DNA of 64,000 nucleotides from Wenyingzhuangia sp. 2_MG-2023. Lineage in GTDB: Bacteria; Bacteroidota; Bacteroidia; Flavobacteriales; Flavobacteriaceae. This document shows positions 8,241 to 26,405 of this stretch, in pieces. Numbering within the stretch: position 1 is the first letter of the stretch; each line of letters opens with the position of its first letter. The notes below the pieces were generated by a model, which had not been told where the DNA came from, did no database searches, and worked only from the letters and a program-made list of their open reading frames with translations. The position numbers and the translations under genes are program-made. The stretch spans positions 124,001 to 188,000 of the forward strand of contig NZ_JAUOSB010000004.1 in NCBI RefSeq assembly GCF_030548295.1, in the 5' to 3' direction.

Positions 8241-8279
8241 AAAATCAAAAAACACCCCAGTTTTTAAAAACTGGAGCGT
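8241..8279 (-). terminator. Rho-independent terminator of the TonB-dependent transporter gene
   Basis: On the minus-strand RNA, 8279-8252 folds into a 14-bp stem (ACGCTCCAG pairs with CTGGGGTGT through two G-U wobbles, plus five A-T pairs) followed by a T-rich tract (8251-8241). It separates transporter transcription from the GH29 operon. Confidence 0.8.
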
Positions 8280-15800: not shown

Positions 15801-16990
15801 CTTAACAAGTCATTATTGTTGTAAACAGACATCCAAAGCCTACCTTTATTATCTTCTAAAATAGCCGTTATTAGGTTGTCTGTAATAGCATAACTATCAT
15901 AAGGGTTGTGGTAATAATTTATAAATTGCTTTTGAGAAAGATCCAACTTATTAATTCCACCCTGAGCAGTTCCTATCCACAAAACACCATAATTATCTTG
16001 AAAAATAGTGTTGATATGATCACTACTTACACCTAAATCATTTTTCGGATTGTATTGGTAACTTAAAAACTGATCTTCTTCTTCTACATATCTTAAAAGA
16101 CCACTGTTTGTAGTTCCAATCCATACGTTATTACTTGCATCTTGAAACACCGTTTTTACAGACATTGGAGTACTACTTTTCTTAGAAACACCTATGTCAT
16201 AAAACCTCTTGATTACATTAATTCTATTTTCTTCAAGACTTGTTTTAAACAATCCTTTGTCTGTTCCAATCCACAGAATATTTTTGATGCTTTTTACAAC
16301 GGTAACATCTGCATTCTTAAACCTTTTAAGGTTTTTAAAAATTTTAATTCTTAGTTTTTGATTTAGCAACTCATTTTCTTCTAATTCAATTTTTTTTATA
16401 CCAAAATTGGTCGCTAATATCAATTTACGATTTTCAACAAAACTAAAATCATTAATAGTTAAAGTGTTCGGATATTTTACAAGAAGATTCTCTGAAACAC
16501 TCAAACTCCCTGTTTCATAATCTAACAGTTTACAATAGTGCAATCTATTCTCTCCCGAAAACCATATACTCCCATTTGGACCTGTTGTTATATGACTAAC
16601 TTGTAACTTAGACAAAAGCGGCACTGAGTAAAATTTTTCTAGCCAAGGTATGTAAACATCTACTCCTACATTGGTTCCAATCCATAAAACACCATCGCTA
16701 TCGCTATGCAGACTGGTTAAATTATTACTAGAAATATTTCCGTTCGTTTTAGACTGTGTTGTATAAGTCTCAAAATCATAACCATCATATTTTATCAATC
16801 CATTTGGAGTTCCAAACCACAAAAAACCATATTTATCTTGTGCTATTGTATTTATAGTATTCTGATTGAACCCTTCTTTATTAGAAAATCTTTCAAAATT
16901 TTGAGCATAAATCACAAATGAATTTGTTACGAACAGCAGTATTGCTTCTACAACAAATAGAAGTGTTATAAATCTCGTTGGTTTTATCAT
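12812..16990 (-). CDS. Hybrid two-component system regulator (Reg_prop sensor, histidine kinase, receiver, AraC DNA-binding)
   Basis: This is a one-protein sensor and transcription factor of the type that controls polysaccharide loci. The ATG at 16990 gives 1392 residues; the longer frame to 17008 begins with TTG. After the signal/anchor come tandem Reg_prop beta-propeller repeats (to about residue 735, recurring LWFGT and LWIGT), a Y_Y_Y domain (about 740-800), a membrane helix (about 825-850), DHp with ISHEFRTPLT (His near 881), HATPase (VDTGKGIPANDL), a receiver (ISDVMMPKMDG, Asp near 1190) and a C-terminal AraC HTH (about 1285-1392). All catalytic motifs are intact. The periplasmic propeller normally binds an oligosaccharide product. 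It reads toward the CBM and transporter genes, 148 bases from the CBM gene start. Confidence 0.95.
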   Translation of the reverse strand: MIKPTRFITLLFVVEAILLFVTNSFVIYAQNFERFSNKEGFNQNTINTIAQDKYGFLWFGTPNGLIKYDGYDFETYTTQSKTNGNISSNNLTSLHSDSDGVLWIGTNVGVDVYIPWLEKFYSVPLLSKLQVSHITTGPNGSIWFSGENRLHYCKLLDYETGSLSVSENLLVKYPNTLTINDFSFVENRKLILATNFGIKKIELEENELLNQKLRIKIFKNLKRFKNADVTVVKSIKNILWIGTDKGLFKTSLEENRINVIKRFYDIGVSKKSSTPMSVKTVFQDASNNVWIGTTNSGLLRYVEEEDQFLSYQYNPKNDLGVSSDHINTIFQDNYGVLWIGTAQGGINKLDLSQKQFINYYHNPYDSYAITDNLITAILEDNKGRLWMSVYNNNDLLRSTTEVTEKSVYNLQFKSLKNKIPFSIDIPIRCIYEDRKGLIWFGTDEEVFVYNPVKEEFKRLEFEKEGRRLPEQEFRDILQVDDHNFIFAGGEITVVKDPWLTIEQQEIPSLKVTSFTNLHERDLCHTVLKNKNDILWFGTSKGLLYGTFKNGEIKISGVLSDDKRNDVRLSYSNVFSLYEDQKGNIWAGTFGGGANKITLDSKGKPINVNYYRKNDFLPDDAIYGIIPENDTYLWMSTDMGLVKFNMKTNKIDVFDVRDGLTQNNFRQGAYFKGKSGYYYFGGLNGLTVFKPENIKKNTTLPKIQITSLFINNKEVKIGEKLNNEIILKKSIAETESISVSQNEQSVAFQLFVEHTSIPAKNKLAYKLEGFNNEWIESESGKNVITYTNLPAGDFTFKIKAANGDGVWSSDIKKLKVKILPPWYKTWWSYLIFIILIILICVGVMIYFILHEKLKQKLIYEQLDKERIDTINQGKFRYFTNISHEFRTPLTLIAGPLEQAIQANKDEVQSRYLAIIQKNTKRLLSLVDQLITFRQAEQGFISLNLNKVTLGNFIYPTTEAFESYAIEKEINFFYKVNSPNEEIVIDVEKVERIMYNLLSNSFKNTPPNGSISIEADVINTEKEKLIRIDVVDTGKGIPANDLNNIFERFYQLGNNKENVSGGGIGLAFCKSLVELFKGEITVKSEPDVETRFSVVIPSTSSEYTATEIDTTSKSYIKDWVPLPSEYKTETINQENDGDLAFKQTVLIVEDEEDLQIFLSGFLSKYYNILMAKNGFEALEKIQIKEPDLIISDVMMPKMDGFALCEKIKTNPETCHIPLLLLTALGDDENLIKGLEFGADEYISKPFSLKHLSIRAERLIQNKLKLKEHFSKNSSIPQGDIDLSIRDKEFLNNIIKIVENNLSSSSFGVEELSTAIGLSTSHFYKRLKQLTGQIPSVYLRNFRLQRAADLLKSNQGFNVTEVMYQIGIESPSYFSTSFKKLHGVSPSEFLKKLNK

Positions 16991-17146
16991 AAAGCTAGTC
17001 TTAAACAAAATGTAATCGATTTAATGAAAAAGGGAAAATACCCAAAAAAAGTAGTCAAAAAAAGACATTTTACACATTATATTTGACCAATATTCAAATT
17101 TATAAAAATAAGCCTCTTTATCAATATTACAATCGAATGGTTTTTT

Positions 17147-17827
17147 TTACAATTCAAAAACAGAGTCTCTTTCTACCAAACGAACCAATTCTGAAACTTT
17201 ATTTACCTCTAATTTTTTATAAATATTTTTTACATGAGAATGAACCGTTCCGTATGAAATTTTTAAGATACCCGCTACCTCTTTTTGAGTACAACCTGCT
17301 GACAAAAGTTGCACTATCTCTTTTTCTCGAACGGTTAGTTTTTTTATGTTATCTACCTTAGTTGGTCTTGCTCTATTCTGACACACCCCTAACGTAATCG
17401 CATACTTTGGCAGACCTTCTTCTGTTCTGTAGATTGTTTTTGTAACTCCTTGAACATCTTTCCAAGCTTCTCCCTTATATTTTAGTTTATAATCTAACTC
17501 TAAATAACCTCTGCCTCCTTGTTTAAAAAAGAAAAAAGATTTTGCCAATGTGTGTATTGTTGACGGATGTAATAATTGCAAATAATACAAATAGTCTACA
17601 TCTTGAAACCAGTTACTTTTGAACCCATAAAAATCTCTAAAAGAATTATTCAAACATAACGGTTTGTATAATTCTACATCGTGCAACGTAATTAAAAATA
17701 CAGTTTGATTGATTGTTTTTAAAAAAGATTCACATTCATGGATATTATTAAAATCAATATCTGAATGAGCCAACAATTTCTCTACAATGTTATCTAATTC
17801 TTTTTTTAAGACTATTTTTTTTTCCAT
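17147..17827 (-). CDS. PAS-like/LuxR-type transcriptional regulator
   Basis: The protein has 226 residues. The N-terminal two-thirds (about 30-150) has a PAS-like pattern (NNSFRDFYGFKS and LHPSTIHTLAKS), and the C-terminus is a LuxR/GerE helix-turn-helix (about 162-222, LTVREKEIVQLL and YGTVHSHVKNIYKKL). There is no receiver domain with a phosphorylatable Asp, so it is probably a one-component sensor or takes its signal by another route. It diverges from the histidine kinase gene with a 197-base gap containing an 11-bp inverted repeat. It could act on the polysaccharide locus, the kinase-catalase pair or both; nothing decides this. The ligand is unknown. Confidence 0.82.
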   Translation of the reverse strand: MEKKIVLKKELDNIVEKLLAHSDIDFNNIHECESFLKTINQTVFLITLHDVELYKPLCLNNSFRDFYGFKSNWFQDVDYLYYLQLLHPSTIHTLAKSFFFFKQGGRGYLELDYKLKYKGEAWKDVQGVTKTIYRTEEGLPKYAITLGVCQNRARPTKVDNIKKLTVREKEIVQLLSAGCTQKEVAGILKISYGTVHSHVKNIYKKLEVNKVSELVRLVERDSVFEL

Positions 17828-17947
17828 TTGATAAAATCTATTAAATTATCATTTATTTTTTCTACAATAAACCTCTAACACGAAACATATACCCTAAAAA
17901 GGGGATAGATTTTATACCACAATAAATTTATGTTTGCTATAACTATT

Positions 17948-17973
17948 AAAAATCATACATAAGTATGATTTTT
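17948..17973. promoter_or_regulatory. Inverted repeat between divergent luxR and kinase genes
   Basis: The arms are perfect 11-bp repeats (17948-17958 and 17963-17973, core AATCATAC/GTATGATT) around ATAA. The position between two divergent starts fits an operator for the LuxR regulator better than a terminator, although the T-run on the plus strand would also suit an attenuator. No binding data can be inferred. Confidence 0.4.
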
Positions 17974-18024
17974 AGATGATATTTAATTCACACTCAATGT
18001 GTTTATTGTAACAAAGTTTATCAT

Positions 18025-19800
18025 ATGAGATTTTTTTATTGGTTTCTTCTGTTTGCAAATATTGTTTATGGTCAGATTCCATTAGATAAAAATCTTTTTC
18101 ACACAAATACATACAACGACAGTTTGACTATTAATGACGTTGTTCTGTTGGAAAAAAAGGGAGCATTTAAGCATACTTTTAAAAATGAAACCTACAAATA
18201 CCTTATTGGAAAAGAAGCTAATTGGGTTTTGTTAAAAATTCCAAAACAAAATGAAGAACGTTTTTTAAGCATTCAAAATTCACTTTTTGAAGAAATTGAT
18301 TTTTACCTTGTTAACGATTCTATTAAAAAACTAAATCACCACCAAGAATCCTACCGATTTCCGCTTGTAAAAATTAGTACTAGCGACACTCCTTGTCAAT
18401 TATTTATCCGAACCAAAGATGCCAAAAGTTTTAGAACTGAATTTTTAATTAAGGTTTTTACTGTTGATGAGCTTCAAAAAACTAGTCAGGTTGATTATTT
18501 TAACATAGGAGCTTACGTTATTGGGCTTCTTGTTTTATTACTTTCTGCTTCTATTATTTTTCTATACAAACGTCAATATGTTATCCTTTGGTACATGCTA
18601 CACTTGCCAACCTTAATTATAGAATATTTAATTAGTACCGGTACATTTAGTCAATGGTTTGTAGACAATAAAATAATTCTTACTTACGGATTAGATCATG
18701 TATTTATGCTTATCTCTACCTTAGCTTTGTCTGAGTTTTTTCGAAATTTTTATCCTTTTAATAAAAAAACTTTGTTCTGCAAGCACATATACTTTATCGT
18801 TAGTATATGGTGTACAATAGGAATTGTTTTTGCTTTTGTAGATGGTTTTTCTGGCAATATTTACAACGTTGAGTATTATGCTCAAACAGTTCTAAACTAC
18901 GCTTCTTTAATTTCATTAATCATACATTGTATTCTTGTTTATTATCGAGTTATTCCTATTTATTTATTCATAGCCTTTTTACTACCTGTTCTCGGAATTT
19001 TTGCAAATCTTGGTGATTTTAAAGAACAATTTTCAAATCCTAAAATAGTGTACTTTCTTTACCAATCTGTCTATTTAGGAATCTTGATTGAAGTCCTTGT
19101 AATCATATTCTACATCATCAAACAATCTGTAGATGGAGAATTACTTTCTATCAATCTAAAAAAAGAAAACAGTACGCTAAAAAATAATTTTCATGAAGAA
19201 TTATCACTTGTTCAAGAACAACATCAAAATAATTTGATGAGTGACGTACACGATTCTTTTAGCGGATATATTCAAGCTCTAAAACTCAATCTTTTGAGCA
19301 AAACGTTAGACAACGATAAAATCAACGAAATTTTAGATGCCTTTAAAAAAGACTATAAATTTTTATTAAATTCACTATACGTTCCTAATGTAGATTCTGG
19401 CAATTTTGAAATGGCAATAAGCGAATATTGCCAAAAAATGGATCAACTAAGTAGTATTAAAATTTCTTTTAACAGCCACAAAGAAAAAAACCATCTCCCT
19501 CTGAATCAAAATATTGCGAAATTAATTTTTAAAGCAGCTTCAGAACTCACTACCAATTCAATTAAGTTTTCTGAGGGTAGTATTATTGATGTAAATTTAG
19601 CTCTAAATCATGATTATATTGAATTGAATGTGAAAGACAATGGTCTTGGATTTGACCCTAATAAAATTCCAAAAACTTCTTTTGGAATTCAAGGACTTAA
19701 AGAAAGAGTAGGACTCTTAAATGGTAGATTTGCAATTAAAAGTTTTAAAGGAACCTGTGTTTCCATTAACATTCCTTTAAACCAAAAAATTACCGAATAA
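18025..19800 (+). CDS. 7TMR-DISM-type sensor histidine kinase, no partner response regulator
   Basis: This 591-residue membrane kinase has a signal peptide (1-16), a periplasmic domain of the 7TMR-DISM extracellular kind (about 17-158), about seven membrane helices (160-370), a short coiled coil, then a HisKA_3-like phosphoacceptor helix (VHDSFSGYIQALKLN, His409) and an HATPase domain (ELTTNSIKFS, VKDNGLGFD, GIQGLKERVGLL). This architecture normally pairs with a NarL-type response regulator. None is encoded nearby; the adjacent LuxR protein lacks a receiver. The stop codon overlaps by one base the ATG of the next gene, a catalase-like haem protein, so the two are translationally coupled. The signal is unknown. 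Alternative partners would be a distant regulator or the PAS-LuxR protein through non-canonical contact. Confidence 0.88.
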   Translation: MRFFYWFLLFANIVYGQIPLDKNLFHTNTYNDSLTINDVVLLEKKGAFKHTFKNETYKYLIGKEANWVLLKIPKQNEERFLSIQNSLFEEIDFYLVNDSIKKLNHHQESYRFPLVKISTSDTPCQLFIRTKDAKSFRTEFLIKVFTVDELQKTSQVDYFNIGAYVIGLLVLLLSASIIFLYKRQYVILWYMLHLPTLIIEYLISTGTFSQWFVDNKIILTYGLDHVFMLISTLALSEFFRNFYPFNKKTLFCKHIYFIVSIWCTIGIVFAFVDGFSGNIYNVEYYAQTVLNYASLISLIIHCILVYYRVIPIYLFIAFLLPVLGIFANLGDFKEQFSNPKIVYFLYQSVYLGILIEVLVIIFYIIKQSVDGELLSINLKKENSTLKNNFHEELSLVQEQHQNNLMSDVHDSFSGYIQALKLNLLSKTLDNDKINEILDAFKKDYKFLLNSLYVPNVDSGNFEMAISEYCQKMDQLSSIKISFNSHKEKNHLPLNQNIAKLIFKAASELTTNSIKFSEGSIIDVNLALNHDYIELNVKDNGLGFDPNKIPKTSFGIQGLKERVGLLNGRFAIKSFKGTCVSINIPLNQKITE

Positions 19801-20789
19801 TGGTTTTTAACAAAGAAAATCAACAGTTAATTAAAGAAATAGAAGACACTATGTCTAACTATATTTTAAAGACATACAAGAAAGGGAACACCAAGAGAGA
19901 TGCTCATCCTAAAACACATGCTGTTGTAAAAGGATTGTTTCACATCAACCCAGATCTTCCTGAAACATTAAAAATAGGATTGTTCAACAACCCGTCTAGC
20001 TACCAAGCCGTAATTCGTTTTTCTAACGCTAGTCATATTATAAAACCAGATAGCAAGCCAGACATTAGAGGTATTAGCATCAAACTCTTAGGAATAAAAG
20101 GCGATCGTGTAAAAAATTCTATCGAAACAAAGACACAAGACATTTTACTGATGACCCACCCAACTATGCCATTGGGAACTTTAAAAAAATTTCACAACAC
20201 TATAACAAATACCGTTAATACAAACATCCTAAAACGTCTTTTTTGGGTTGTAAAAAACAAAACTCTTTTCAATAAAATAAGACAAGCTGAAAAAACACAC
20301 AATTCACTATCTGACTTGAGTTACTGGAGCACAACAACGTACGCATTTGGGGATAAAATCATCAAATACAAACTAACCCCCAAAGTACATGAAAACAAGA
20401 CATATGCCATTAATCAAAATCCAAATTTCTTAAAAGAACGATTGATTTCGGAACTTACCAACAATGATATTGTTTTTGATTTTTGTGTTCAATTTTACAA
20501 AAATGATACTCTTACACCACTAGATGATATGTCTTTAGATTGGGATGAGACTTTAAATCCTTTTTTAAAAGTGGCCACATTGGTAATTCCTAGTCAAACC
20601 GTAAAAGAACAACCTGAAATAGACAAACTCTTAACTTTTTCATTAACCAACTCTTTATTAGCTCACAAAGCTGTTGGAGAATTGAACGAAGTAAGAATAA
20701 AAATCTATCAAAAATTAGCGCAATTAAGGCACAAACTAAATCATTTAGACCTAAAAGAATTTACTGAAAACGACTACAACAACTTATAA
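19800..20789 (+). CDS. Catalase-superfamily haem protein (y4iL-like; possible hydroperoxide-metabolising enzyme)
   Basis: At 329 residues this is a minimal catalase fold, far shorter than true catalases (about 480 or more). Seen in the sequence are the distal pattern R33-x-x-H36-P-K, the RFSNAS strand, RGISIKLLG (matching RGFAVKF of catalases), YWSTTTYAFG, and a C-terminal R299-x3-Y303 that fits the proximal Tyr ligand helix. The catalase distal-pocket NNTP block is replaced by MTHP, so the distal Asn is probably absent. Catalase-related proteins of this size include coral allene oxide synthase, which turns fatty-acid hydroperoxides into allene oxides. Its gene converges with a cyclooxygenase-like gene, overlapping by 6 bases. 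True catalase activity is unlikely; lipid hydroperoxide chemistry or peroxide sensing are the main alternatives. Confidence 0.8.
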   Translation: MVFNKENQQLIKEIEDTMSNYILKTYKKGNTKRDAHPKTHAVVKGLFHINPDLPETLKIGLFNNPSSYQAVIRFSNASHIIKPDSKPDIRGISIKLLGIKGDRVKNSIETKTQDILLMTHPTMPLGTLKKFHNTITNTVNTNILKRLFWVVKNKTLFNKIRQAEKTHNSLSDLSYWSTTTYAFGDKIIKYKLTPKVHENKTYAINQNPNFLKERLISELTNNDIVFDFCVQFYKNDTLTPLDDMSLDWDETLNPFLKVATLVIPSQTVKEQPEIDKLLTFSLTNSLLAHKAVGELNEVRIKIYQKLAQLRHKLNHLDLKEFTENDYNNL

Positions 20790-22400
20790 TTTTTTGGCCA
20801 CTTTGTTATAATTAAAGCCAACATTACTGTCAACCTCTTCTGTGTAATCTATAATTTCTTTTAACGAACCTATATGGTTGATAATCTTCATTCCGAATGC
20901 ACTAAATGTATTTTCATTGTATACTTGCTCAGACAACAGAGGATTGGTTAATGCATGAGAAAACGCATCTGAGGCAATCATTTGCAACATTAAATCTCCT
21001 AAAATAGGTTTCTCTTCATACATCACATTTTTAGGTGGATCTTGAGCCAAAGCCCCCACTGTTAAATCAACTTTATCAACATCTCCGTTGTACAAAGAAT
21101 TCAACAATGCTAATTGATTTTCATCTTTTGTAATATCTGACATCACCCTTGGTCTTGCTTTTTTAGAACTTTTTACCATAGCTCCTGAAAAATGTTCACA
21201 ATAATCTGCATACGGTTTTAGCTTAGAAGCTCTAGATATAAAAAGCGATGACATTTCTGCATGCATCATAAAATCAGGAGTGTTTGACAAGGTCATTTTC
21301 CCTGCTTTTTGATAAGACAATTGATGAAAAATAGTTTCTAAATTATTGTTTTCGACAAATTGATTGTTGAATCTAAAATGATCTTTAACATCATACACTT
21401 TTCCATCAAAAGAAAAAGAATCAGGAATAAAAGAATGCCATCTATAGAGCAAATTGAATTCTGTAGCTATCCAATTATTTCTATACCAATCTTGCTTGGC
21501 TGCAAACGTAGTATCAAACTCAAAGTGCATCCACTTAAAAGGTTTTAAATGATTTACATAATCTTCAATCACAACTTTAATCAACACCACTATCAGAATA
21601 TTTCTTGTTGTCTGAAAAATTCTTTCATCATTCCATGAGTATTTTTTTTCTAAAGCTCCCGCCACTTTGTTGTGAAATCTCAAAAAAAGCGTATTTATAG
21701 CAACATGAGAAACTGTTGAATTTCCTCTTCCCAACCCTGTAGCATAAAATTTTTTGACTTTTTCTTTATCCTGCCATAGATCATGATAAATATGAGGTAA
21801 GTAACCCACATATTCAATATTTTTAAACTCTGCATCTGCAAATTCTAAATTCTCATTGTACAAATAAGGAGGAAATTCTTGGTTCTTAATGAACTGAGAT
21901 TTTAATCTTCCACCTTTCTTACTTCTTAATGCATCGGTGGTTTGCTTGTTTAAACCATACAATTGGCACAAATCAATTTCATGATTTGAAGTATTTTTAC
22001 GTAGATCATTAAAATCTATTCTAAAAAATGCATCTGTAAACCATTGCGCAAAGCCCATAAACAATACAGAAGTTCTATGGCAAGATTTCATGGGACTTCC
22101 ATTTCTCATAAACACGTTTACCGTATCTTTAATCGACGGCAAATTCAATTGACTTTCGGGTGTTGCAATTGGCAACAATCTATTGTTGTAGGTTTTATCT
22201 CTTAAACTTTGCCAAGAAGTGTAATCGTTCACCTTCCATTTGCTAGGATCTTTAAAATTTGGCATACCATTCTTTCCTTCTATATCCAACACAGGAGCAG
22301 GTTCTGGAGAATACATGCTAAAAGGATAGGGTCTAGACGGTTTGGACTTGACGTTAGAGTTAATGACCTTCCTTGATAAAAATCTATTTATTTTTCCCAT
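20784..22400 (-). CDS. Cyclooxygenase-like animal haem peroxidase family protein
   Basis: The 538-residue protein clearly matches the prostaglandin-endoperoxide synthase/haem peroxidase fold. FNLLYRWHSFIPDSF aligns with the COX segment around Tyr385 and His388, giving Tyr319 (radical Tyr) and His322 (proximal haem ligand). HEIDLCQLYGLN aligns with HGVDLGHIYGDN, and GRLKSQFIKNQEFPP with GKLKYQVLDGEMYPP. In the distal helix, FAQWFTDAFF aligns with FAQHFTHQFF: Gln119 is kept, but the distal His207 equivalent is Asp123. This suggests a dioxygenase that keeps the radical Tyr but has lost ordinary peroxidase chemistry. There is no signal peptide, EGF domain or obvious membrane anchor. It converges with the catalase-like gene and diverges from the YiiX-like gene (34-base gap). 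The residue mapping is a by-eye alignment; the fold is secure, the substrate is not. Confidence 0.85.
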   Translation of the reverse strand: MGKINRFLSRKVINSNVKSKPSRPYPFSMYSPEPAPVLDIEGKNGMPNFKDPSKWKVNDYTSWQSLRDKTYNNRLLPIATPESQLNLPSIKDTVNVFMRNGSPMKSCHRTSVLFMGFAQWFTDAFFRIDFNDLRKNTSNHEIDLCQLYGLNKQTTDALRSKKGGRLKSQFIKNQEFPPYLYNENLEFADAEFKNIEYVGYLPHIYHDLWQDKEKVKKFYATGLGRGNSTVSHVAINTLFLRFHNKVAGALEKKYSWNDERIFQTTRNILIVVLIKVVIEDYVNHLKPFKWMHFEFDTTFAAKQDWYRNNWIATEFNLLYRWHSFIPDSFSFDGKVYDVKDHFRFNNQFVENNNLETIFHQLSYQKAGKMTLSNTPDFMMHAEMSSLFISRASKLKPYADYCEHFSGAMVKSSKKARPRVMSDITKDENQLALLNSLYNGDVDKVDLTVGALAQDPPKNVMYEEKPILGDLMLQMIASDAFSHALTNPLLSEQVYNENTFSAFGMKIINHIGSLKEIIDYTEEVDSNVGFNYNKVAKKL

Positions 22401-22434
22401 TTTTATGTAACTTAACTGCCTTAAATATAAGGAA

Positions 22435-23310
22435 ATGACTTACACCGACCTATCCGAATTTAAAAATCATCTACAATCTGGAGATGTTATTATGCATCAT
22501 GCCCATGGCTTTATTTCCAACACCATTAGAAAATTCAATCGCAGCAATTACAACCATTGTTCTGTATACGACAAAAACGGTTATGTTTATGAATCTGTAA
22601 CTGGAGGAATACAACGAAAAACCGTTGAGGATAGTCTTAAAACACAAAAAACCTACGCAATCAGTATCTATAGATTGAATAGTTCTTCTGAGGATAAAAT
22701 TGTAAAAGTTACTGAAACAATTCAAAATCACTATACTAGCAAAATATATGCGTATAGTCAAATTGGTTATTTAGGAATTCTACTTGCTAGAAAATTTTAC
22801 GGAACAAACAGCAAGTTTCGAAAATACACTTACAAATACTTTTTATATGCTTGTGATTTGTTTGGAAAAATAATGGATCCTTTAAATAAAAATCATACTT
22901 GTTCAGAACTGGTATACAGAGCCTACAAACAAACAGCAAATACTCTTAAAGATCCAGAACTCTACATTGTTTTTCCTTTTGAATCTAGTCCTCTTAATTA
23001 CCACAACACTACTTATCTGCCTGAAAACTCAACAAATTCTTCTAGCAAAAAAGGAATATTAGTTATCATTAACAACACATATAGTTTGATAAAAAAATCG
23101 ATTCCTATATTCTTCAGCGCATCTTTTTTATCTCAAAACGCAACTAGTGACCTCCAAAATATAAAGCAAGAATTAAGTGAAATTCTCACAGAAATAGATA
23201 TTGATAATTTTATAACTCCTGGTGATTTAGAAAAAGCAATCAATCTAGATTTTATTGCAACGTACAAAACAGACAAAAGTGATCGAAAATGTAATTTTTG
23301 CAATTACTAA
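22435..23310 (+). CDS. YiiX/LRAT-like permuted papain-fold hydrolase or acyltransferase
   Basis: This 291-residue protein begins with the permuted NlpC/P60 pattern: LQSGDVIMHHAHG, then NHCSVYDKNGYVYES (His near residue 41) and, far downstream, NHTCSELVYRAYK with the probable nucleophile Cys. In this fold the His precedes the Cys, as in YiiX/YaeF, LRAT and HRASLS proteins; members act on amide or ester bonds, including phospholipid acyl chains. The C-terminal 100 residues are polar and not recognised. There is no clear signal peptide. It diverges from the cyclooxygenase-like gene. A role in releasing fatty acid for that enzyme is attractive but inferred; a peptidoglycan-type hydrolase is the alternative. 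The ATG at 22435 has AAGGA just upstream. Confidence 0.75.
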   Translation: MTYTDLSEFKNHLQSGDVIMHHAHGFISNTIRKFNRSNYNHCSVYDKNGYVYESVTGGIQRKTVEDSLKTQKTYAISIYRLNSSSEDKIVKVTETIQNHYTSKIYAYSQIGYLGILLARKFYGTNSKFRKYTYKYFLYACDLFGKIMDPLNKNHTCSELVYRAYKQTANTLKDPELYIVFPFESSPLNYHNTTYLPENSTNSSSKKGILVIINNTYSLIKKSIPIFFSASFLSQNATSDLQNIKQELSEILTEIDIDNFITPGDLEKAINLDFIATYKTDKSDRKCNFCNY

Positions 23311-23318
23311 AAAACCCA

Positions 23319-24455
23319 CTATGCTTTAAAAAATCGTTTTATCAAATAAAACCACCACCTTTTCTTTAATTTAATAATAGACACAACATCTAGTCCTTTT
23401 CCTTTCTTTTGTTCTGTAATAAGATAAGGTACTGCAAATTCTGTTTCATTTAAGTTTGGAGATTTATAACCATATCTCACATCATTGATATACAGTTCAC
23501 CTGCTATTTCAGAAAAGGAATACCAATTACTCACCACCTTTTTAAACCTACTTATCAAGGCTAAAAATTCAGGATCATCGTACTTTATTAAGTTTTGGTT
23601 TATAGGAACAGAAATAAATTCTATCTCTTTCTTTTTTTGAAAAATAGAATAATACCCTATCAAATATCCTTCTTTTACCCTTACGTTCACTGTCCATAAA
23701 ATAGCATTAAAAAACGTGGGTTTTACCTCTATTTCATAGTAAGTAATTTTTTGAGAAGCTAACTGCTCTTTAAATTTAGGAACAATAAAAATCAACCTTA
23801 AAAGAAACGTAGCTATCAAATACGTTAGAACTAAAATTATGGGTAAATAATTTATTGAACCCACTTCTTCTCCTTGAGTTTTGTTATATACATATTGAGC
23901 GATTATTAACAACTGAGCAACCATTAGAAGTGTTACAACAAAATCCCACACAGAAACACTTTTTGTCTTTAATGCAGTCTTAACAGGATAAAAATAATAG
24001 ACTCCCCAAGAAGTACAAAAATCTAAGGCAACATGAGTTCCTAAAATTAGAAAACAGTATAATGCAATTTCTATAAATGTAGTATTATCAAAATTTTCTA
24101 CCGAAACTATCAAAGAAATTACCATGCTGATCATCAAACTAAAAACTATATGTACAAAAAAGGAATGTGTCCATTTTCTATGTCTCTCCATGTACACAAT
24201 TGTTGAGTGAATTTTCTTATTCATCAAATCAACATCAGGTAAAAATCCCAATACTGCTCCTATCAAAGCTGAAAAAAGGGTCGCCTTTACTTCTCCTACT
24301 CCAACCTCTAATTTGTCTTTAAAAAGCAATACACCTGTTGTTGCTCCTACTGATATATGTGTAAATGGTCCCAAATGCTGCGGTTTTATTTCATTTTTTG
24401 ACAATACGTTAAATATAAAAACATTTACAAAACCTAACACACTGAATGCATTCAC
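23319..24455 (-). CDS. YdjM-type membrane-bound metal-dependent hydrolase
   Basis: The protein has up to 378 residues. The N-terminal 220 residues match the YdjM/DUF457 membrane hydrolase family: THISVGATTG, LPDVDLMNKKIHS, ERHRKWTHSFFVHI and HVALDFCTSWG carry the His and Asp residues thought to bind metal, spaced among about five membrane helices. The remaining C-terminal part (about 225-378) is a soluble beta-rich domain not recognised. The start is unusual: the only in-frame initiators before the THIS motif are GTG at 24455 and a TTG downstream. It lies tail to tail with the YiiX-like gene (8-base gap). In E. coli YdjM is a LexA-regulated gene of unknown reaction; no function can be assigned here beyond the family. 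Confidence 0.8.
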   Translation of the reverse strand: MNAFSVLGFVNVFIFNVLSKNEIKPQHLGPFTHISVGATTGVLLFKDKLEVGVGEVKATLFSALIGAVLGFLPDVDLMNKKIHSTIVYMERHRKWTHSFFVHIVFSLMISMVISLIVSVENFDNTTFIEIALYCFLILGTHVALDFCTSWGVYYFYPVKTALKTKSVSVWDFVVTLLMVAQLLIIAQYVYNKTQGEEVGSINYLPIILVLTYLIATFLLRLIFIVPKFKEQLASQKITYYEIEVKPTFFNAILWTVNVRVKEGYLIGYYSIFQKKKEIEFISVPINQNLIKYDDPEFLALISRFKKVVSNWYSFSEIAGELYINDVRYGYKSPNLNETEFAVPYLITEQKKGKGLDVVSIIKLKKRWWFYLIKRFFKA

Positions 24456-24473
24456 TTTACAATTTACACCTAA

Positions 24474-24505
24474 AAAAGGCTGTTTGAATTTTCAAACAGC
24501 CTTTT
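24474..24505 (-). terminator. Terminator of the purF-like gene
   Basis: The 15-bp perfect arms (24474-24488 and 24491-24505, core AAGGCTGTTTGAA) have a T-tract on the minus-strand side. The hairpin lies 26 bases past the purF-like stop codon and just upstream of the metal hydrolase start. Confidence 0.85.
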
Positions 24506-24530
24506 ACTATATCTTGAAGCTTATGGTTTA

Positions 24531-26405
24531 TTAATAAGCTCTTTTATTATTTCCTTCGTAAAAGTTGATAAACGCTTCATTTACCACTCTTTTCCCTCCA
24601 TCCGTAGGGTAATCTCCAGTAAAATACCAATCTCCTTCATGCTTAGGACATGCAGCATGCAAACCTTCAATTGTTTGGAAAATAATCTGAACTTCAGAGT
24701 TGATTTCAGAAGTTTTTAACATCTCTGAGATTTTTGCAGAAATCTCTTCTGGTTTGAAAGGCTTGTAAATTTCTTTTACGTAGTTTTTTATTCCAGCATC
24801 TTCACCGTTACGTTGTTTTACACACTTGTTGTAAACATCCGTTACAATTTGATACCTTCCTGTTTCTTTCAACAATTCAATAGCCGCTCTAAAGGCAATA
24901 AAATCTCCTAATTTGGCCATATCGATTCCGTAGCAATCTGGATAACGAATTTGAGGTGCTGAAGAAACCACAACTATTTTCTTAGGTTCGGTTCTGTCTA
25001 AAATTTTGATGATACTTTTCTTCAAGGTAGTACCTCTTACAATACTGTCATCAATAATAACAATATTATCGTCTTTTTTAACAATACCATAAGTAACATC
25101 ATAAACATGAGCTACCAAATCATCACGACTATCATCAGACGTAATAAAAGTTCTCAACTTAGCATCCTTGATTGCCAATTTTTCAAAACGAGGTCTAATA
25201 GCTAAAATATCTCCCACTTGTTTTGCACTCAAACCTCTGCCTCCTGCTAATATTTTTTCTGTTTTTTGTTTGTTCAAAAAGTCTTCTGCAGCTTCACACA
25301 TTCCAAAATATGAAGTTTCAGCAGTATTTGGAATGTAAGAAAAAACTGTATTTTCAATATCTCCGTTAATACTATCTACAATTTGAGGAAAAACTCTTAC
25401 TCCTAAATCTTTTCTTTCTTTGTAAATTTCGGCATCACTACCTCTAGAAAAATATATTCTTTCAAAAGAACAAGCTTTTTTCTCTTTAGGCTCTAATACT
25501 TTTTCAACAGAAACCTTTCCGCTCTTTTTTGCAATAATAGCATGTCCAGGTTCTAGTTCTTTAACCTTATCCATAGACACATTAAAAGCTGTTTGAATTA
25601 CAGGTCTTTCAGAAGCAACTACCAAAACTTCATCATCTTTGTAATAAAAAGCTGGACGGATCCCTGATGGATCTCTCATCACAAAAGCGTCTCCATGTCC
25701 TAACAAACCTGCCATGGCATAACCTCCATCAAAACTGCGAGTAGCTCTTTTTAAAATTTTAACCAAATCCACTCTTTCGGCAATAATGGGAGAAGCTTCT
25801 TTTTTGGTATAATCTTCTTTTATTTCTTGGTAAATGGTCTCTACTTGATCATCTAAAAAGTGACCAATTTTTTCCATTACAGTTACTGTATCTGTATTTT
25901 CTTTTGGGTGTTGCCCTAACTCAATCAACTCATCTAATAATTGTTTTGAATTGGTCATGTTAAAATTCCCTGCAACAATTAAGTTCTTATGTCTCCAATT
26001 GCTCTGACGCAAGAAAGGGTGTACATTTTCAATAGAGTTTCCTCCGTAAGTACCATACCTAGTGTGTCCTAAAAATAAGTTCCCTATAAAAGGAATGTTT
26101 TCTTCCAACCAAGCAACATCATCCTTTTTTTCTGGATTTGCTTCTATAGTTTCGCTAATTCTACCATTGATTTTTTTAAAAATATGCTGAATCGGCTGTT
26201 GTTTGTTAGAACGAATTCTACTAATGTATCTGCTCCCAGGGTTTACATTAAATTTGATACTTGCAAAACCGGCACCATCTTGTCCACGGTTGTGCTGCTT
26301 CTCCATTAGTAAATACATTTTATTTACTCCGTAAAAAGCAGTACCATATTTTTCTTTATAATACTCTAAAGGTTTTAGCAACCTCACCATTGCAATACCA
26401 CACAT
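24531..26405 (-). CDS. purF: Amidophosphoribosyltransferase (PurF family, long flavobacterial form)
   Basis: The 624-residue enzyme transfers the glutamine amide to PRPP, the first committed purine step. Met-Cys-Gly-Ile-Ala puts the Ntn nucleophile at Cys2. The glutaminase domain (about 1-290) has NRGQDGAGFAS, GHTRYGTYG and GGYAMAGLLGHGD. The phosphoribosyltransferase half has the PRPP loop VIIDDSIVRGTTLKKS (about 460-475) and VSSAPQIRYPDCYGID. It is longer than the roughly 500-residue standard PurF through insertions and a C-terminal extension. Flavobacteria often carry both a standard and this long form, so a second purF elsewhere is possible and this could be a specialised paralog. It is a single gene with its own terminator. 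The sequence CAAAATTA at 26462-26469 is a possible reverse TAnnTTTG box. Confidence 0.88.
   Translation of the reverse strand: MCGIAMVRLLKPLEYYKEKYGTAFYGVNKMYLLMEKQHNRGQDGAGFASIKFNVNPGSRYISRIRSNKQQPIQHIFKKINGRISETIEANPEKKDDVAWLEENIPFIGNLFLGHTRYGTYGGNSIENVHPFLRQSNWRHKNLIVAGNFNMTNSKQLLDELIELGQHPKENTDTVTVMEKIGHFLDDQVETIYQEIKEDYTKKEASPIIAERVDLVKILKRATRSFDGGYAMAGLLGHGDAFVMRDPSGIRPAFYYKDDEVLVVASERPVIQTAFNVSMDKVKELEPGHAIIAKKSGKVSVEKVLEPKEKKACSFERIYFSRGSDAEIYKERKDLGVRVFPQIVDSINGDIENTVFSYIPNTAETSYFGMCEAAEDFLNKQKTEKILAGGRGLSAKQVGDILAIRPRFEKLAIKDAKLRTFITSDDSRDDLVAHVYDVTYGIVKKDDNIVIIDDSIVRGTTLKKSIIKILDRTEPKKIVVVSSAPQIRYPDCYGIDMAKLGDFIAFRAAIELLKETGRYQIVTDVYNKCVKQRNGEDAGIKNYVKEIYKPFKPEEISAKISEMLKTSEINSEVQIIFQTIEGLHAACPKHEGDWYFTGDYPTDGGKRVVNEAFINFYEGNNKRAY

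Follow-up and report, generated by a model that had tools for sequence, protein, structure and literature searches.

A candidate oxylipin locus in Wenyingzhuangia and a few other flavobacteria: a probable 10S-type dioxygenase with a catalase relative, a YiiX-like enzyme and a sensor kinase

What might a flavobacterium make with a catalase-like haem protein, a cyclooxygenase (COX)-like protein and a YiiX-like papain-fold enzyme encoded side by side? The question is raised by positions 19800-23310 of a 64,000-nucleotide stretch (hereafter the window) of the 3.98-Mb draft assembly of Wenyingzhuangia sp. 2_MG-2023. The original prediction, made from the sequence alone, had proposed here a pathway of fatty acid release, dioxygenation and hydroperoxide conversion. 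In the open reading frame (ORF) list of the window all three ORFs are found at these positions, and the families claimed for the adjacent genes are borne out by profile matches and matches in the Protein Data Bank (PDB). From sequence comparison, we consider that the genes probably serve the regulated formation of oxylipins, around a dioxygenase of the bacterial 10S-dioxygenase (10S-DOX) type.

The argument starts from the COX-like protein, which matches PF03098 at E 3.7e-33 (115.3 bits, cut-off 25). Its best PDB relative is mouse COX-2 (6.1e-42), with 30% identity to the mouse COX-2 fragment over the aligned part. The predicted Tyr-x-x-His motif holds up in the alignment with mouse COX-2: Tyr319 and His322 of Tyr319-Arg-Trp-His322 correspond to COX Tyr385 and His388, and Gln203, Tyr348 (Tyr281 here) and Trp387 are likewise kept. 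The window enzyme accordingly shares with mammalian COX-1 and COX-2 the fold family, the catalytic Tyr, the proximal His, Gln203 and Trp387; it differs in having Asp123 for the distal His207, Ile475 for Gly526 and Ala479 for Ser530. No Pfam match to an epidermal growth factor (EGF) domain was found in the protein. Because the positions of the distal His, Gly526 and Ser530 all differ, we ruled out a cyclooxygenase sensu stricto or prostaglandin synthase, and for the same reason COX-type endoperoxide chemistry is unlikely, as judged from the aligned residues. The Asp is found in 14/14 loci of the dioxygenase clade, a count that excludes nine distant Bacteroidota peroxidases (L006-L014) in which the MAFFT column for residue 207 is untrusted; all five of these nine that were scanned read Q-x-x-D/A-H. 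The frame used for the Methylobacterium dioxygenase of the clade begins at base 8001 of L015, ahead of the start annotated at 8241.

A closer fit is offered by the cyanobacterial 10S-DOX, which, in the available passages of its description, is 542 aa long, carries F143-t-d-s-F where COX has F205-t-h-q-F, ends in the motif I483-G-x-D-A487-F-x-Q-A and has Arg at the position of COX Val291 (PMC13049297). In the window protein the distal helix reads F121-T-D-A-F125, the terminal motif reads I475-A-S-D-A-F-S-H-A, and Val291 corresponds to Arg225 (across 12 aligned relatives this position is Arg in ten and Asn in the two Ruegeria sequences). Since the Asp at His207, the length, the terminal motif and the Arg at Val291 match published 10S-DOX, the window dioxygenase appears to belong with the bacterial 10S-DOX enzymes rather than with COX proper. 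All 12 of 12 aligned sequences share an Arg-Pro pair close to the N-terminus (R23-P24), and that it is the counterpart of COX Arg120 is a guess. The dioxygenase is probably unable to reduce the hydroperoxide it forms, as COX does, and this product would be handled by the separate catalase-fold partner. The lost distal His beside a separate haem partner suggests a split of two activities that COX unites.

A bacterial pair of this kind has a precedent. The linoleate 10S-dioxygenase of Nostoc (B2J5P4) and the catalase-related lyase encoded next to it were reportedly described by Brash et al. (2014, J Biol Chem 289:13101). In Nostoc punctiforme, according to the available parts of two reports, linoleic acid is oxygenated by a COX-like enzyme to the 10S-hydroperoxide, from which a catalase-related hydroperoxide lyase makes 1-octen-3-ol (PMC9579011, PMC9410191). 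The claim in the original prediction that no bacterial system with this combination had been described does not hold for two of its three genes, the Nostoc pair being already known; the predicted pathway is nevertheless a sound idea, and its last two steps have that pair as a precedent. The two systems share a COX-like dioxygenase of about 540 aa with a separate catalase-related protein, and, in the published passages on the Nostoc enzyme, the Asp at His207, the equivalents of Tyr385, Tyr348 and His388 and a similar terminal motif. They differ in that the present locus lies in a member of the Bacteroidota and comes with a YiiX-type enzyme and a seven-transmembrane (7TM) sensor kinase, frequently joined by a YdjM-like protein and a response regulator. 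What is new is the company of YiiX-like enzyme and 7TM sensor kinase; among the matches listed in open-licence literature, no description of this larger set was found.

Other known systems couple the same two tasks differently. The coral fusions of allene oxide synthase (AOS) or hydroperoxide lyase (HPL) with lipoxygenase (LOX), and the cyanobacterial catalase-LOX, also join a catalase-related protein to a fatty-acid oxygenase; there, as far as the available text goes, the oxygenase is a fused lipoxygenase, whereas here it is a COX-like haem enzyme encoded by a separate gene (PMC5617202, PMC11719350). Fungal fusions of dioxygenase and cytochrome P450 (DOX-CYP; the linoleate diol synthases and allied enzymes) combine a COX-like dioxygenase with another haem protein acting on the hydroperoxide, but in the passages available the partner is a fused P450 and not, as in the window, a catalase-fold protein (PMC13049297). 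Catalase-related proteins and P450s are, in these partial accounts, both processors of hydroperoxides in known oxylipin systems (coral AOS-LOX, PMC5617202; fungal DOX-CYP).

The catalase-like window protein matches no Pfam family at 1e-3 and matches PDB chain 3e4w at 1.9e-5, which we take to be the minimal catalase of Mycobacterium avium subsp. paratuberculosis. The haem residues of coral AOS (cAOS) are given as R64, R102 and R360, with distal T66, H67 and N137 and proximal Y353, in the available passages of PMC5617202. The window protein has R33, R73 and R310, a distal H36 and a proximal Y303 in R299-x-x-x-Y303, and R33, H36, R73, R299, Y303 and R310 are invariant in 7/7 aligned catalase-like sequences; going by these residues, the protein should bind haem. 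Against Pfam catalase (cut-off 25) the relative in L041 scores 21.5 bits and that in L015 28.8 bits, and the relative in L021 gives no match. The catalase profile was found in 5/299 genomes of the family, the window's own included; six stretches from the other four (L056-L061, L061 being cut by a contig end) had no match at 1e-2 to the YiiX-like enzyme or kinase of the window or L041. Two long catalase-bearing frames among them, in L057 and L058, were considered as catalase-lipoxygenase fusions and rejected, being LodA-type oxidase fusions: an N-terminal catalase-related domain sits on LodA-type oxidases (PF17990, PF18417; L057 5057-8275, L058 6831-10001), and a gene reading like a flavoprotein lies downstream. 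In L056 (7506-13022) and L061 (5004-7134) a catalase-related protein with an extra C-terminal part is encoded near a patatin-type phospholipase; in L056 this extra part has a Polyketide_cyc2 match below the cut-off, and a DyP peroxidase gene lies between.

Do these genes belong together? One scan of genome contigs yielded three relatives, in Wenyingzhuangia aestuarii (L003, 70%) and two uncultured Aquimarina (L004 and L005, 55-56%). In all three the genes for the catalase-like, COX-like, YiiX-like and YdjM-like proteins are arranged as in the window, and the kinase gene follows in L003 and L004. The L005 contig stops within the catalase gene, and the facing contig end (L064) holds the remainder of that gene and a kinase (55% identical); the catalase piece in this genome contains three in-frame TAA codons, the longest open frame being 227 aa. 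An Aquimarina-group genome (G741) has two further copies, L041 and L042, with dioxygenases 39-40% identical. In these copies the genes for kinase(s), catalase, YiiX and dioxygenase are co-directional and either overlap or lie a few bases apart, except for a 29-base gap between the kinase and catalase genes of L042; in L041 a response regulator gene stands between those two. In the region 10483-14095 of L041, the dioxygenase gene shares 4 bp with a neighbour that has a borderline match to EAD11 (25.7 bits vs 26) and weak SAVED_CHAT and caspase matches; next come another EAD11 gene and one whose PADLOC match to a caspase is weak.

Dioxygenase, catalase, YiiX and kinase genes are present in 6/6 flavobacterial loci from five genomes (one locus over two contigs), and the YdjM-like gene in four of the six. 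The original prediction had named lack of a conserved neighbourhood as the outcome that would count against it; instead, the trio stands together in five further flavobacterial loci. Its co-occurrence claim holds, and the conserved set proves larger than three genes, including the sensor kinase and often a response regulator and the YdjM-like gene. As the group recurs in five other loci, the association is not chance, and as two gene orders keep the same members, it speaks for a functional tie and not mere inherited synteny. The dioxygenase and catalase trees (the latter without L005) are compatible for the flavobacteria: the window pairs with W. aestuarii, and the G741 copies stand together outside, with support of only 85/89 for the first pair in the catalase tree.

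Outside the flavobacteria the core pair is found in other company. A tblastn search of plasmids gave 12 records, of which eight loci were inspected and H2, H6, H7 and H8 left out. A catalase-fold gene adjoins the dioxygenase gene in four of the eight (Methylobacterium currus, Paracoccus yeei and two Ruegeria, where it is annotated as hypothetical), and a P450 gene in three, identified from the annotation in Sinorhizobium medicae and Rhizobium etli (the latter with a Pfam match below the cut-off) and from Pfam in R. gallicum. In these rhizobial plasmids (L019 6619-9536, L020 6610-9512, L017 6619-9536) the P450 gene lies directly upstream of the dioxygenase gene, with overlapping reading frames in L019 and L017; with their unfused P450, they stand between the fungal DOX-CYP and the window arrangement. 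On the P. yeei plasmid (L018 5045-9521) genes for a RoxA-like cytochrome c (PF21419, 1.2e-19), a catalase-family protein and the dioxygenase are consecutive. Over the whole clade, a catalase-fold gene lies beside the dioxygenase gene or one YiiX gene away in 10/14 loci. The core pair is widespread; kinase and YiiX genes are seen only in the flavobacterial loci.

This spread of partners bears on whether the locus serves to destroy peroxides. As defence against lipid peroxides or H2O2, the haem pair would detoxify, the YiiX-like enzyme would remove damaged acyl chains and the kinase would sense oxidative or envelope stress, which suits the haem-peroxidase superfamily membership of the one protein, the catalase fold of the other and a kinase whose C-terminal half resembles LiaS and UhpB kinases, far under the cut-offs. 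The distal His of COX-type peroxidase catalysis is Asp in 14/14 loci with the oxygenase Tyr retained, however, the partner is a P450 and not a catalase in 3/14 loci, and the closest characterised relative is a dioxygenase working with a hydroperoxide lyase, so that we regard peroxide defence as improbable.

Within the flavobacteria the locus is rare. The dioxygenase occurs in 1/299 genomes of the family and in 1/395 of the order at 1e-40, each time the window's own, and of the 10/395 phylum genomes with PF03098 only the window's own falls in the dioxygenase clade by identity. The genus of L004 has full-length dioxygenase matches in 3/66 genomes, with two more that are partial and weaker, and that of L003 has a match in 1/6 (the family, order, phylum and genus samples overlap). 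In the one listed genome of the window's genus, G228 (L063, G228:C1:934000-953000), the purF side is kept at 77-92% identity and the locus side holds other genes; the purF flank there marks one edge of an accessory segment. Being rare and absent from G228, the locus is accessory. Such patchiness, with the purF flank kept in a same-genus genome that lacks the locus, would also be expected of a conflict or cell-death module in which a trigger releases a membrane-damaging or signalling oxidised lipid, comparable to lipase and caspase-like effector systems, and the borderline EAD11 and weak SAVED_CHAT and caspase matches among the L041 dioxygenase neighbours point the same way. The caspase link is nevertheless confined to one of six loci, and the five window proteins scanned had no PADLOC match at 0.01, leaving such a module very unlikely. 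On that PADLOC result an antiphage system was set aside.

For the oxylipin reading, the YiiX-like protein is the candidate source of substrate. It matches the YiiX structure 2if6 at 1.3e-4 by profile, its relative in L041 reaches 30.4 bits against PF05708 (cut-off 27), and the permuted order His41 ... Cys156 is kept, both residues being invariant in 6/6 YiiX-like sequences. It shares the permuted NlpC/P60 fold and the His-Cys order with Escherichia coli YiiX (2if6) and Staphylococcus aureus LnsA, and differs in its longer C-terminal part; to our knowledge, neither of these has been linked to an oxygenase. Gene order lends support in L041 and L042, where the YiiX gene is co-directional with the dioxygenase gene. 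In the available parts of the literature, the crystal structure of YiiX holds a fatty acid in the active site and cleavage of fatty acid-amino acid amides was proposed for enzymes of its type (PMC3142127), one permuted NlpC/P60 protein is a demonstrated phospholipase (PMC12994826), and LnsA is likely the catalytic half of the LnsAB lipoprotein acyl transferase (PMC7387801). A fatty-acid desaturase is encoded in 5/5 genomes with the locus (and in 5/14 control genomes), so that an endogenous unsaturated substrate is possible; food-derived fatty acids are possible as well. The proposed amide cleavage (PMC3142127) could also suit secondary metabolism, in which the haem pair would modify a substrate other than a fatty acid (polyketide, terpene, lipoamino acid) that the papain-fold enzyme attaches or releases, and catalase-fold proteins do occur in other contexts, for example fused to LodA-type oxidases. 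Against this, the closest characterised relative, in the published passages on it, uses C18 fatty acids, and we hold a role in secondary metabolism to be very improbable indeed.

The kinase and the YdjM-like protein were passed over in the original prediction and flank its three genes (Table 1). The kinase has 7TMR-DISM and HATPase domains and scores 25.4 bits against PF07696 (cut-off 22), 35.4 bits against PF02518 (cut-off 26.4) and 24.6 bits against PF07695, below the cut-off of 29, which the L041 and L042 kinases that were scanned exceed. Homologous kinase genes stand next to that for the catalase-related protein in L003, L004, L041 (with the response regulator between), L042 and L064, and a response regulator gene lies inside or beside four of the six flavobacterial loci (L003, L004, L005, L041). 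In L039 (3603-8465), a stretch of the window's own genome, the response-regulator orthologue is accompanied by another 7TM kinase and by relatives of two envelope genes; in W. aestuarii those envelope genes (L003 14033-16285) lie near the dioxygenase locus. It is conceivable that the locus forms a complete lipid-signalling circuit of acyl-releasing enzyme, COX-like dioxygenase, hydroperoxide-converting catalase relative and receptor, in which the 7TM kinase would perceive either the released fatty acid or the oxylipin and feed back on the locus, a counterpart in layout of the animal phospholipase, COX, isomerase and 7TM receptor; what is observed is gene company, and we find such a circuit doubtful.

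In the window, the kinase stop and the catalase-like start share one base (TAATG), the catalase-like and COX-like genes are convergent with a 6-base overlap, and the COX-like and YiiX-like genes are divergent, their start codons 34 bases apart. Beyond the YdjM-like gene follows one that we read from its sequence as purF. No RNA element reached the gathering score within 16500-25000. The YdjM-like protein matches PF04307 at 1.4e-20; its structure model is weak (predicted local distance difference test, pLDDT, 60) and gave no Foldseek match at 0.001, and we claim no phospholipase role for it. Whether the divergent LuxR-type regulator is a member of the locus is uncertain: a 56% identical homologue lies near the W. 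aestuarii locus (L003 13347-14003), and its N-terminal part, to which no model matched, reads as PAS-like.

Table 1. Genes of the candidate oxylipin locus and its flank, in window coordinates
Feature	Length (aa)	Position	Strand	Basis
LuxR-type regulator		17147..17827	-	GerE 6e-16; divergent from kinase
7TMR-DISM sensor histidine kinase	591	18025..19800	+	PF07696, PF02518 above cut-offs
Catalase-related haem protein	329	19800..20789	+	PDB 3e4w, haem residues
COX-like haem dioxygenase, putative bacterial 10S-DOX type	538	20784..22400	-	PF03098, COX-2 match
YaeF/YiiX-like permuted NlpC/P60 (papain-fold) enzyme	291	22435..23310	+	2if6, His-Cys order; PF05708 below cut-off
YdjM-like membrane protein	378	23319..24455	-	PF04307

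Taken together, the genes would allow the following course of events. A membrane signal would act through the kinase and a LuxR-type response regulator to control the locus, and the YiiX-type enzyme would take an acyl chain from a lipid or an acyl-amide and free it or pass it on. The Tyr319 radical of the dioxygenase would then take an allylic hydrogen and add O2 to give a fatty-acid hydroperoxide, with oxygenation near C10 of an 18-carbon chain if the enzyme is Nostoc-like, and the catalase-related protein would cleave or isomerise the product.

Several observations weigh against this reading of a regulated oxylipin-forming locus. On the regulatory side, no response regulator gene stands beside the window kinase; the nearest response-regulator orthologue lies about 43 kb away on the same contig, beside another 7TM kinase, and in L042 the window's response-regulator orthologue has no match. 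As regards substrate release, the YiiX-like protein reaches 24.2 bits (3.8e-5) against PF05708, below the cut-off of 27, and 32.8 bits (3.8e-8) against NCBIfam YaeF, where the cut-off is 279, and its putative acyl role follows from family membership. In the catalase-related partner, Thr66 of cAOS is replaced by Ala35, and the distal Asn of catalase and cAOS looks like Thr112, placed by eye against human catalase; the same column holds Asn in the L041 and L042 relatives. With Thr112 and Ala35 in place of the distal Asn and Thr66, its residues do not single out one reaction, and the protein may cleave, isomerise or reduce the hydroperoxide; its predicted structure has a mean pLDDT of 39 (from three sequences). 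The comparison with Nostoc draws on published motifs only, an Acaryochloris relative (39% identity) standing in the tree instead, and the Acaryochloris dioxygenase (L016) has no catalase-fold or P450 partner within 8 kb. The eight plasmid loci have no match at 1e-2 to the YiiX-like enzyme or kinase of the window or L041, and most flavobacteria have no such locus.

Bacterial oxylipin production is known from few cases, and its purpose is mostly open. The available part of one account describes the roles of oxylipins in prokaryotes as largely unidentified (PMC5155153). A fixed gene set of the kind found here would be a genetic handle on when, and from which lipid, a bacterium makes oxylipins. 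The exchange of catalase for P450 in rhizobia means that living bacteria show both of the partner types that occur fused in corals and fungi, and the dioxygenase clade may help trace the origin of the coral and fungal oxylipin pathways.

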